NCBI RefSeq assembly: GCF_002127265.1
Contig: NZ_NFUU01000001.1
Coordinates: forward strand, 2,054,040-2,118,039
DNA: 64,000 nt
Reading direction: 5' to 3'
DNA from: Hydrogenophaga sp. IBVHS1
Lineage (GTDB): Bacteria > Pseudomonadota > Gammaproteobacteria > Burkholderiales > Burkholderiaceae_C
Shown here: in pieces, positions 14,365 to 17,981 of the stretch
Layout: every line of letters begins with the position of its first letter
Numbering within the stretch: the first letter of the stretch is position 1
Notes under the pieces: model-generated
What the model saw: the letters and a program-made list of their open reading frames with translations, nothing else
Database searches by the model: none
What the model was told of the DNA's origin: nothing
Position numbers and translations under genes: made by a program

Positions 14365-14459
14365 CGCACCCCCGGCCCAACAGGCCGAGGGTGTTCGTCA
14401 TGGTCAATCTGGCCTCCTACAAGCTCAAGTCCAACCCTGCTCCGTTTTTCCGTCTTCTC

Positions 14460-17400
14460 ATGGACTTGCCCAAACTCTCTCCTGGCAAACGCCACACCCT
14501 GCCCCTGCCAGGCGGCTCGGCCGATGCCCTGCTGGTGGCCCGACTGGCCGCGCGTGAAAAGGCCGCTGGCCGGCTGACTGCGATCGTTACGGCAGATGCC
14601 AACGACGCACAGCGCCTGATCGATGAAATGGCGTTCTTCGCGCCGGAGCTGCGCTGCGCGCTGTTTCCCGACTGGGAAACGCTGCCTTACGACACCTTCT
14701 CACCGCACCAGGACCTGATCAGCGAACGCCTGGCCACGCTCTGGCGGATTTCTCAGCGCGACAAGGACACCGGCGCCGACGTGGTTCTGGTGCCCGCCAC
14801 CACCGCGCTGTACCGGCTGGCTCCGCCCGCCTTCCTGGCCGGCTATACCTTCCACTTCAAGGTCAAGCAGAAGCTTGACGAAGCCAAACTGAAAGGCCAG
14901 TTGACCCTGGCCGGCTACCAGCATGTGACACAGGTGGTGAGCCCGGGCGAGTACGCGGTGCGTGGCGGCCTGATCGACCTCTTCCCGATGGGCAGCCTGG
15001 TGCCCTACCGCGTGGATTTGTTCGACGACGAGATCGACAGCATCCGCACCTTCGATCCCGACAGCCAGCGCAGCCTGTACCCGGTGACAGAAGTGCGGCT
15101 GCTGCCAGGCCGCGAGTTCCCCATGGACGACGCGGCACGGGCACGCTTTCGCAGCCGCTGGCGGGAGTTGCTGGAGGGCGATCCGACCAAGAGCCGCATC
15201 TACAAGGACATCGGCAACGGTGTGGCCACCGCCGGCATCGAGTACTACCTGCCGCTGTTCTTCGACGACACCGCCACCGTGTTCGACTACCTGGGCGCTG
15301 ATGCCACCGTTGTGCTGCACGGCGAACTCGAGCCCGCGTTCCAGCGTTTCTGGCAGGACACCAAGGACCGCCACCGCCTTTTGAGGGGTGACCCGGAACG
15401 ACCGGTGCTGCCTCCAGAGGCCTTGTTTCTGGACGCCGAGCAGTTCTACATTCGCGCGAACCAGCACGCGCAGCTCGCTCTCAAATCCGTTCGCCCTGAG
15501 CTAGTCGAAGGGCTTGGTGAGGCTTCGACAGGCTCAGCCCGAACGGCATTTGCAGAAATCAACGGCTTGCCCGACCTCTCGGTGCTGCGCGGCGCGGAAG
15601 ATCCGCTCGCACGACTGCAAGGCCACATTCGCAACACCACGCACCGCGTGCTGCTGCTGGCCGAGAGCGATGGACGACGCGAGAGCCTGCTCGATTTTCT
15701 GCGCGCCAGCGGCTTGAATCCGCCGGTGGTCGACTCGCTGGCCGAGTTCCAGGCGAGCGACGAAAAGACGGGCATGGCCACCGCCGCGCTCACGGTGGGG
15801 TTTTCATGGCTCGACGAGGGCATCGACTTCGTCACCGAGACCGAACTCTTCGCCGCTGGCCCCACCACGCGCCGGCGCAAGAAGCAGGAGCAGGTCAGCG
15901 ATGTCGATGCGCTGATCAAGGATCTCTCCGAACTCAATGTGGGCGACCCGGTGGTGCACAACGCCCATGGCATTGGCCGCTACCGGGGTCTGGTGAACAT
16001 GGACATGGGGGAGAAAAACCCCGACGGCTCGCCCGCGCTGCAGGAGTTTCTGCACCTGGAATACGCCGACAAGGCGGTGCTCTACGTACCGGTGAGCCAG
16101 CTGCAACTGATTGGCCGATACACCGGCGTGAGTGCCGACGAAGCCCCGCTGCACAGGCTGGGCAGCGGGCAATGGGAGAAGGCCAAGCGCAAGGCGGCCG
16201 AACAGGTGCGCGATGCGGCGGCCGAACTGCTCAACATTTACGCACGCCGCGCCGCGCGCCAGGGCCACGCCTTCCGCTATTCGGCACAAGACTACGAGGT
16301 GTTCGCCAACGACTTCGGCTTCGAGGAAACCGCCGACCAGCGCGCCGCCATCCACGCCGTCATTCAGGACATGATCAGCCCGCGCCCGATGGACCGACTG
16401 GTCTGCGGCGATGTCGGCTTCGGCAAGACCGAAGTGGCGCTGCGCGCCGCCTTCGTGGCCGTGACCGGAGGCCGCCAGGTGGCATTTCTCGCCCCCACCA
16501 CGCTGCTGGCCGAGCAGCACTTCCACACGTTGACCGACCGCTTTTCGAAGTGGCCGGTGAAGGTGGCCGAGATGAGCCGCTTCCGCTCCACCAAGGAAAT
16601 CAACGCAGCGGCCAAGGGCCTGGCCGATGGCTCGGTCGACATCGTGGTCGGCACGCACAAGCTGCTCAGCGAGAGCGTGAAGTTCAAGGACCTGGGCCTG
16701 CTCATCATCGACGAGGAACACCGCTTTGGCGTGCGGCACAAGGAGCAGATGAAGGCCATGCGTGCCGAGGTGGATGTGCTCACGCTCACCGCCACCCCGA
16801 TTCCACGCACACTGGGCATGGCGCTCGAAGGCCTGCGAGACCTCTCGGTGATCGCGACCGCGCCGCAACGCCGCCTGGCCATCAAGACCTTTGTGCGCAA
16901 CGAAGGCAATGGCGTGATCCGCGAGGCGGTGCTGCGGGAATTGAAGCGCGGTGGGCAGGTCTATTTTCTGCACAACGAGGTGGAAACGATCGAGAACCGC
17001 CGGCAGAAGCTGGAAGAAATATTGCCCGAGGCGCGCATTGCGATTGCACACGGCCAGATGCCCGAGCGCGAGCTGGAACGCGTGATGCGCGACTTTGTGG
17101 CCCAGCGCTACAACCTGTTGCTGTGCTCCACCATCATCGAGACCGGCATCGACGTGCCCACGGCCAACACCATCGTGATGAGCCGCGCCGACAAGTTCGG
17201 CCTGGCGCAGCTTCACCAGCTTCGTGGACGGGTGGGTCGCAGCCACCACCAGGCTTACGCCTACCTCATGGTCCCCGACACCGAAGGCCTGACCAAACAG
17301 GCTTCGCAGCGGCTGGACGCCATCCAGCAGATGGAAGAACTCGGCAGCGGCTTCTACCTGGCCATGCACGATCTGGAGATTCGCGGTGCCGGTGAGGTGC

Positions 17401-17981
17401 TGGGCGAGAACCAGAGCGGCAACATGCTGGAGGTGGGCTTCCAGCTTTACAACGAGATGCTGAGCGAGGCCGTGCGCTCGCTCAAGGCCGGCCGCGAGCC
17501 CGATCTGCTCTCGCCGCTCTCGGTCACGACCGACATCAACCTGCACGCACCCGCTTTGCTGCCCAGCGACTACTGCGGCGACGTGCACCTGCGCCTGTCG
17601 TTCTACAAAAAGCTTGCCACTGCGAAGAACACCGATCAAGTGGACGCGCTTCTCGAGGAAATAGTAGACCGCTTCGGCAAGCTGCCACCGCAAGCGCAGA
17701 CGCTGATTGATGTGCACCGCCTGCGTTGCATCAGTGCACCCTACGGCGTGGTGAAGGTGGACGCTGCGCCCGGCGTGATCCAGATCACCTTCCGCGCCAA
17801 CCCGCCGTTCGACTCGATGCGCATCATTGAGCTGATCCAGAAGAACAAGCACATCAAACTGGCCGGCAACGAAAAACTGCGCATCGAGCGCGCGCTCCCC
17901 GAGGTGAAAGATCGGGTGCAGATGGTGCGGGACGTGCTGCGCTCGCTCGGCCAACCCTTGAAGCAATCCGAACCCGCATGA
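14460..17981 (+). CDS. mfd: Transcription-repair coupling factor Mfd
   Basis: ATP-driven translocase that removes stalled RNA polymerase and recruits UvrA. About 1173 residues: UvrB-homology N-terminal domains, the RNAP-interaction region, a RecG-like helicase with GDVGFGKTEVALRAA (Walker A), the DEEH box in LLIIDEEHRFGV, and a C-terminal D7/TRCF domain. The start at MDLPKLSPGKRHTLPLP matches the family N-terminus; an ATG at 14400 with an upstream GAGGG would add 20 residues. Residues 343-363 are encoded by a 60-bp palindromic dispersed repeat inserted in frame. The stop overlaps serB by 4 bases. Confidence 0.95.
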   Translation: MDLPKLSPGKRHTLPLPGGSADALLVARLAAREKAAGRLTAIVTADANDAQRLIDEMAFFAPELRCALFPDWETLPYDTFSPHQDLISERLATLWRISQRDKDTGADVVLVPATTALYRLAPPAFLAGYTFHFKVKQKLDEAKLKGQLTLAGYQHVTQVVSPGEYAVRGGLIDLFPMGSLVPYRVDLFDDEIDSIRTFDPDSQRSLYPVTEVRLLPGREFPMDDAARARFRSRWRELLEGDPTKSRIYKDIGNGVATAGIEYYLPLFFDDTATVFDYLGADATVVLHGELEPAFQRFWQDTKDRHRLLRGDPERPVLPPEALFLDAEQFYIRANQHAQLALKSVRPELVEGLGEASTGSARTAFAEINGLPDLSVLRGAEDPLARLQGHIRNTTHRVLLLAESDGRRESLLDFLRASGLNPPVVDSLAEFQASDEKTGMATAALTVGFSWLDEGIDFVTETELFAAGPTTRRRKKQEQVSDVDALIKDLSELNVGDPVVHNAHGIGRYRGLVNMDMGEKNPDGSPALQEFLHLEYADKAVLYVPVSQLQLIGRYTGVSADEAPLHRLGSGQWEKAKRKAAEQVRDAAAELLNIYARRAARQGHAFRYSAQDYEVFANDFGFEETADQRAAIHAVIQDMISPRPMDRLVCGDVGFGKTEVALRAAFVAVTGGRQVAFLAPTTLLAEQHFHTLTDRFSKWPVKVAEMSRFRSTKEINAAAKGLADGSVDIVVGTHKLLSESVKFKDLGLLIIDEEHRFGVRHKEQMKAMRAEVDVLTLTATPIPRTLGMALEGLRDLSVIATAPQRRLAIKTFVRNEGNGVIREAVLRELKRGGQVYFLHNEVETIENRRQKLEEILPEARIAIAHGQMPERELERVMRDFVAQRYNLLLCSTIIETGIDVPTANTIVMSRADKFGLAQLHQLRGRVGRSHHQAYAYLMVPDTEGLTKQASQRLDAIQQMEELGSGFYLAMHDLEIRGAGEVLGENQSGNMLEVGFQLYNEMLSEAVRSLKAGREPDLLSPLSVTTDINLHAPALLPSDYCGDVHLRLSFYKKLATAKNTDQVDALLEEIVDRFGKLPPQAQTLIDVHRLRCISAPYGVVKVDAAPGVIQITFRANPPFDSMRIIELIQKNKHIKLAGNEKLRIERALPEVKDRVQMVRDVLRSLGQPLKQSEPA
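15487..15546. repeat. REP-like palindromic repeat inside mfd
   Basis: Imperfect inverted repeat: left arm CCGTTCG-CCCTGAGC-TAGTCGAAG, right arm CTTCGACAGGCTCAG-CCCGAACGG, with about 12 bases between. It is read through in the mfd frame as SVRPELVEG...ASTGSARTA, a peptide I recall recurring in unrelated proteins of this bacterial family. The surrounding Mfd sequence is normal on both sides. Confidence 0.8.

Follow-up and report, generated by a model that had tools for sequence, protein, structure and literature searches.

The mfd locus and its palindromic element

The stretch analysed here (the window), 64,000 nucleotides of Hydrogenophaga sp. IBVHS1, carries on its forward strand the gene mfd for the transcription-repair coupling factor (14460..17981). 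The open reading frame is listed from a GTG at 14391 (14391-17981, 1196 aa) and was identified in a profile search by NCBIfam TIGR00580, which scored 989.9 bits where its cutoff is 800; the larger Mfd model NF007966 scored 1302.3 bits, slightly below its own cutoff of 1329. Most full-length homologue matches begin at residues 15-24 (mostly 20-24 in one search), so that the true start is probably the ATG at 14460, the letters of which were confirmed. In E. coli, Mfd is conserved yet non-essential, in contrast to the 'essential-type' label given to the protein in a preliminary description of this DNA.

Within mfd, in frame at codons 366-386, lies a REPIN-like inverted dimer of 60 bp (15487..15546, forward strand), recognized by its inverted repeat, its absence from most aligned Mfd sequences and its dispersal. 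The arms of the repeat (15487-15510 and 15523-15546) are 24 nt each, 83% complementary and 12 nt apart, and the element translates to S-VRPELVEGLGEASTGSART-A, 21 residues of Mfd, which bears out the earlier claim of a 60-bp REP-like inverted repeat read through in the Mfd frame. Sequence and unit structure divide the dimer into unit 1 of the 'CC' type (15487..15513, forward strand), in which a GTTCG tag is followed by the stem-loop CCCT..AGGG and which encodes VRPELVEG; a spacer (15514..15520); and the inverted unit 2 of the 'GG' type (15521..15546, reverse strand), in which GGCT..AGCC is followed by CGAAC and which encodes ASTGSART. The 23-base half-site, allowing up to 3 mismatches, occurs 19 times in the same genome compared with 0 for its reversed control, so the palindrome is not a product of chance. 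Rfam matches all fell below their family thresholds and were put down to fortuitous similarity between hairpins; the best, mir-2830, was full-length (15481-15553, minus strand) and scored 23.5 bits against a gathering threshold of 70.

Our Mfd alignment comprises 111 rows, two of them duplicates (L077 is the window protein Q itself, and L166 a record of L078). The preliminary description had expected homologues to lack the 21 residues, and the family is indeed present in only eight rows (Q, L077, L078, L166, L079, L105, L212 and L199) and absent from 103. By alignment, 15487-15546 is confirmed as an insert in Mfd relative to its homologues.

A variable linker shared by several repeat families

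The insert lies in a variable linker that follows the UvrB-homology module (15453..15592, forward strand), delimited by the 111-row alignment, an alignment to E. coli Mfd and predicted model confidence. Its commonest length is 38 residues by one alignment measure. Internal inserts of at least 8 residues were confined to this linker, with residue 304 (8 residues, in three of the 111 rows) as the one exception, in a census that set aside both ends of the protein, where starts are not set. On the solved E. coli Mfd the site falls at about residues 340-355 by our own count on the alignment, again after the UvrB-homology module, and structure 2b2n, a 344-residue N-terminal chain, gives a match that ends at query residue 357. 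The modules of Mfd are described as connected via flexible linkers (PMC7864632). The AlphaFold model of this part of Mfd is poor (mean pLDDT 57.1), with values below 50 at model residues 125-153, across the linker.

Linkers that are longer and have no palindrome visible by eye occur in seven rows (L186, L192, L195, L203, L205, L206 and L230), indicating that the linker is generally variable, which fits tolerance and weakens any special tie to repeats. Empty linkers are present in relatives of the window Mfd. Among the aligned rows we found no clean pair of empty and filled linkers with a target-site footprint, as the filled and empty alleles are too different from each other.

To judge from their sequences, four unrelated repeat families occupy this one linker across Comamonadaceae. 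The first, family A, is that of the window palindrome, and it is found in Hydrogenophaga (Q, L078/L166, L079 and L105) as well as in the Mfd of Variovorax sp. CF079 (L212) and Xenophilus aerolatus (L199). Family B, with the core GCTGCCCCCCGAGGGGG, fills the linkers of L088/L169 and L101, with apparent shorter relatives, by eye, in L180 and L093; among the loci at hand its core has five further occurrences in four other loci (L317 twice, L320, L322 and L368). Family C is seen in a Ramlibacter Mfd (L194) as TGTC-ATCCCGGA-CTTGG-TCCGGGAT-CCA, and family D in a Polaromonas Mfd (L243), where CCCTCTCCC..GGGAGAGGG is present twice; the same family lies at 63 places in that Polaromonas genome (up to 1 mismatch; control 0). 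The family D palindrome was also seen at 13-16 places in the Ramlibacter (L194), Variovorax (L212) and Xenophilus (L199) genomes. A quick Mfd tree of 110 rows, built with the linker removed and with good support for 37 of its 101 inner branches, requires a minimum of 6 changes for family A, 4 for family B and 12 over all states, and the well-supported branches alone force 2 changes for A and 1 for B relative to the other labelled rows; each change may be a gain, a loss or a transfer.

Family A is a dispersed family of hairpin units

The family A core TTCGACARGCTCAG was found in 55 of 67 Hydrogenophaga genomes, the copy number over all 67 ranging from 0 to 116 (reversed control, 0-2 per genome). 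A slightly longer core is present in 54 of 398 genomes of the phylum, 20 of which hold at least 10 copies by our count. Multiple genome copies of the palindrome, as the preliminary description envisaged, are thus borne out both in relatives and in the genome of the window itself, which holds 14 elements, four dimers and 10 single units; four further rows were left out of this count (C1:2498526 and C3:201866, ordinary gene sequence; C1:401395, with 3 mismatches; and C3:523829, truncated). Exact dimers number 206 in 27 of the 67 Hydrogenophaga genomes, and the lengths of the 75 that we read cluster at 68, 70 and 71 nt with a minor class at 56, to which the window dimer belongs (56 nt from GTTCG to CGAAC; 5 of 75).

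Each family A unit is a hairpin in its own right, with a 5-bp stem and an 11-nt loop, and its stem covaries: the dinucleotide that follows GTTCG is complementary to the one that follows GAAG in 145 of 150 units, against a mean of 65 and a maximum of 82 on shuffling. Of the 75 dimers read, 71 combine arms of opposite type, mostly CC with GG (expected 57%, binomial p 4e-13), and a further 36 dimers from genomes G010 and G012 gave 34 of opposite type, with 70 of their 72 units complementary. Equalizing the arms in silico made the long hairpin stronger by 12.7 kcal/mol on average (71 dimers). Bertels and Rainey put forward a less stable clover form as the one recognized by RAYT (PMC3116915); a rule of opposite arms would favour such a form, or would avoid the loss of long perfect palindromes. 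The rule suggests how the elements may keep an open two-hairpin form and escape becoming one long perfect palindrome.

No link found between the transposase of the genus and the family

The preliminary description had also proposed a test for an associated REP-type transposase, and such an association was not borne out. Genes matching PF01797, the REP-type Y1 transposase (RAYT), occur in 58 of 67 Hydrogenophaga genomes, in two copies in two genomes and otherwise in one, and their number stays at about one per genome whether family A copies number 0 or more than 100. The half-site, allowing up to 4 mismatches, is absent from all 31 RAYT loci that we read (2.1-3.3 kb), that of the window genome included. 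A 16-kb version of the latter locus contains one 4-mismatch match, inside an open reading frame that we take to be pilN. The genome's own Y1 transposase gene (L062:10028-10729, equal to C1:457027-457728) is flanked by GGGGTCAG, of the GGGGWSAS form, and it is among the 14 of 31 loci with the inverted flanks GGGGTCAGA on both sides. With no family A copy in the 31 loci, unrelated copy numbers, and inverted flanks of the transposase's own, RAYT as the linked mover of the family is unsupported and was rejected.

Copies inside genes

Half of the 14 elements in the genome of the window lie in genes, those for DinG, MutL, pyruvate dehydrogenase E2, UvrC, Tex, Mfd and, less surely given its N-terminal position, CysN. 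In G010, genes hold 11 of about 72 elements (DnaE2, RecG, MutL, Tex, ArsA, a formate dehydrogenase-like protein, BoxA, acetoacetate-CoA ligase, Lpd, an HsdM-like methyltransferase and urea carboxylase), and in G012, 18 of about 63 elements fall in 14 genes (UvrA, Tex, PurL and biotin carboxylase twice each, and UvrD, Mfd, MutL, HtpG, AlaS, kynureninase, an MmdA-like protein, GatB, a formate dehydrogenase-like protein and acetoacetate-CoA ligase). The presence of the same peptide in unrelated proteins, mentioned in the preliminary description, is thus found in named genes. Each of G010 and G012 has 109 half-sites, 100 of which were listed and underlie the element totals; these are approximate, as one element may be divided between loci that overlap. 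Genes are counted at a minimum, since the codon-score step missed Tex and CysN in the window's genome, both of which were confirmed by family search. Tex is named by Pfam in that genome only, and by likeness in the other two, and the formate dehydrogenase-like protein, biotin carboxylase, MmdA, the HsdM-like methyltransferase and UvrD score under their own model cutoffs. We left out ten open frames to which no family could be assigned at 1e-10, some of them probably non-genes (L248, L272, L306, L308, L315, L331, L336, L289, L367 and L379), together with L050, where the open frame runs antisense across an intergenic copy, and elements at locus edges.

Although five of the six reading frames of a unit are open, the copies in named genes use them unequally (VRxExVEx 29, STxSxRT 24, LRQAQxER 8, FALSLSKG 0 and FDRLRAN 0). 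All 61 units in family-supported genes are in the three hydrophilic frames and none is in a hydrophobic one, a count that leaves out one four-mismatch chance match near the Mfd start, suggesting that hydrophobic readings are purged. Open reading frames were found blind to the frame of the element, and the chance of the pattern is 2e-7 for 30 distinct sites by recount, on the assumption that sites are independent of one another and that all frames have equal probability. Profile hits, where they show the position, place the inserts in loops and linkers, whether between domains or within them, and the host genes keep an open frame.

Counting genes shared between genomes once, the three genomes give 25 distinct host genes with family support. 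Eight of these encode repair proteins or error-prone polymerase (Mfd, MutL, UvrA, UvrC, UvrD, RecG, DinG and DnaE2). Controls were 40 element-free open reading frames from G010 and G012, of which 21 (20 distinct) have a family at 1e-70 and 19 are unnamed, and no repair gene was found among the 20 distinct named controls. The difference (8/25 versus 0/20) has a Fisher p of 0.006, or 0.004 with hosts also held to 1e-70 (8/22) and 0.0002 when unnamed controls count as non-repair, in a comparison whose controls are few, shorter (mean 442 aa) and near elements, and uncorrected for length, linker content and expression. If the background share of repair genes is assumed to be 5%, a binomial test gives p 2e-5.

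RecG of G010 (L323:1911-4244) carries an array of decayed copies, about 60 residues long, directly before its TATPIPR segment, and similar decayed VRAEP arrays are seen in DnaE2 (L255), ArsA (L260) and UvrC (L053). The MutL linker is filled in all three genomes read (L046, L328 and L382), with a different accretion in each, and the Tex proteins of the three genomes share one position for the single-unit reading ASTGSART (L056, L337 and L305), with a dimer elsewhere in the Tex of G012.

A probably tolerant linker and the alternatives

The explanation that we prefer, with a probability of about 0.82, combines tolerance of the linker and purifying selection with some spread by short-tract recombination. 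The element would be one copy of a dispersed REPIN-like family, composed of a pair of small hairpin units that are inverted relative to each other, and probably mobilized as single-stranded hairpins by a Y1-type enzyme acting in trans. The flexible linker of Mfd may tolerate the additional hydrophilic, probably disordered peptide, and genic copies would survive mainly in linkers and loops and in the hydrophilic frames (VRPEPVEG, STGSART and LRQAQPER), other landings presumably being removed through selection. The four unrelated families would share the Mfd linker because it tolerates many frame-keeping inserts of such size. The insert itself is presumably neutral, and the insert-bearing Mfd is likely to be produced and working. 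The suggestion in the preliminary description that the element enters genes as a tolerated linker is supported, in that it lies in the variable Mfd linker with the frame kept.

The filled allele of the window's lineage has probably also spread between species as a short recombination tract. In the mfd of L079 (genome G032), the bins 5' of the element are 90-96% like L085 of its own clade, whereas the 45 nt directly 3' of it resemble L078 (91%) far more than five members of its own clade (46-54%), and beyond these 45 nt the sequence is again 82-95% like L085. This local mosaic makes it probable that the filled linker allele moved between Hydrogenophaga species. The flanks of the element, moreover, are common to L077, L078 and L079 and absent from L080-L087. 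Both observations would also suit an origin in which no insertion took place in this lineage and the linker was imported already filled, on an mfd tract that another bacterium contributed by recombination. We regard this as possible but less likely than not: the stretch that departs from the clade spans only about 120 nt, element included, no donor was found, and other versions of the element are present in Variovorax, Xenophilus and G016. Such an origin is compatible with our preferred explanation and merely shifts the insertion one step back.

Tolerance of linkers alone leaves the excess of repair genes unexplained. Fixed linkers of a limited set of repair proteins might be preferred niches for palindromes beyond mere tolerance, either because slightly weakened repair pays by way of the mutation rate or because hairpin DNA, as a substrate of these very enzymes, is kept there, a reading that takes in the excision and mismatch repair proteins Mfd, UvrA, UvrC, UvrD and MutL together with RecG, DinG and DnaE2 and, for Mfd, several unrelated families; we regard it as doubtful. 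A second-order form of selection, in which inserts in repair genes are favoured for impairing repair and so increasing mutation rates, would draw on the same excess of repair-class hosts and on the like bias reported for other REP families (PMC3733652). It is less probable still, as the inserts, where profile hits reveal their position, sit in loops and linkers of genes that stay open, long multi-domain genes may merely tolerate inserts, and the controls are few and short. Domestication of the peptide, for instance for a role in the movements of domains D1-D3, which move greatly during the Mfd cycle (PMC7864632), could account for an insert kept with few changes in two species whose Mfd is 95% identical. 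We consider it very unlikely: the close relatives L080 and L081 have no insert, family and length vary among filled linkers, the L079 form has been rearranged to three repeat units with the frame kept, and the L105 copy has decayed. That the segment is an ordinary conserved part of Mfd, palindromic by chance, is ruled out on both counts, the family being absent from 103 of 111 Mfd rows and the same letters recurring across the genome and across Hydrogenophaga, and nothing was found in its favour.

The locus is a natural experiment, in which a single linker of a well-studied repair protein holds four unrelated families and the empty form is present in relatives.

Comparison with known systems

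Intragenic REPs, their bias towards repair genes and the tolerance of linkers were already published in 2013. Di Nocera et al. (2013; PMC3733652) describe GTAG and CGTC REPs inside genes, often genes of replication and repair (Uvr proteins, recBCD, DNA polymerase I and DnaE2), with REPs at about the same site in recB of two Xanthomonas species; they offer flexible linkers as one explanation and speculate that REPs modify repair proteins to give mutators. The exclusion of frames and the excess of repair genes found here make that speculation testable in sister strains. Searches of the literature for the half-site letters and the encoded peptides, which did not extend to figures and supplements, matched no paper, and among the matches listed for the taxon and for intragenic REPs nothing was on point by title. 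Within the literature searched, the GTTCG-tagged family, the use of one Mfd site by more than one family, the exclusion of two frames, the rule of opposite arms and the counting of controls against which the repair excess is set appear to be new.

As described for REPINs and REPs (PMC3116915, PMC3733652, PMC2817692), family A consists of short palindromic units in inverted dimers with preferred spacing, the unit being a hairpin with compensatory changes, dispersed, mostly extragenic and patchy between species. It differs from GTAG REPs in that the copies retrieved with its pattern bear the tag GTTCG at the end where those have an unpaired GTAG, and from REPINs in its 5-bp stem and 11-nt loop, in the opposite type of its dimer arms, in the absence of copies beside the 31 RAYT loci and, compared with REPIN doublets, in its many single units (10 of 14 in the genome of the window). 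The genome's own Y1 transposase resembles TIRYT in its inverted GGGGWSAS flanks (PMC3733652), and these flanks are unlike the Mfd palindrome.

The CGTC REPs are defined by a tag CGTC, TGTC or CCTC, a stem of 8-9 bp, a loop of 4-5 nt and a tail that is mostly CCA (PMC3733652). Family A shares with them, as they are described there, the lack of a dedicated transposase, inverted dimers, intragenic copies and insertions in repair genes, whereas its tag, stem and loop depart from the published definition; family C, in the Ramlibacter Mfd, fits CGTC REP features by our reading of its letters. The Rickettsia palindromic elements, as told in PMC3733652, are palindromes inserted in frame into genes for probably functional proteins, and family A, although from another lineage, is likewise translated in frame in varied proteins (25 distinct genes). 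The resemblance to the Rickettsia repeat peptides noted at the outset therefore holds in the sense that family A works like those elements, set beside it here by description.
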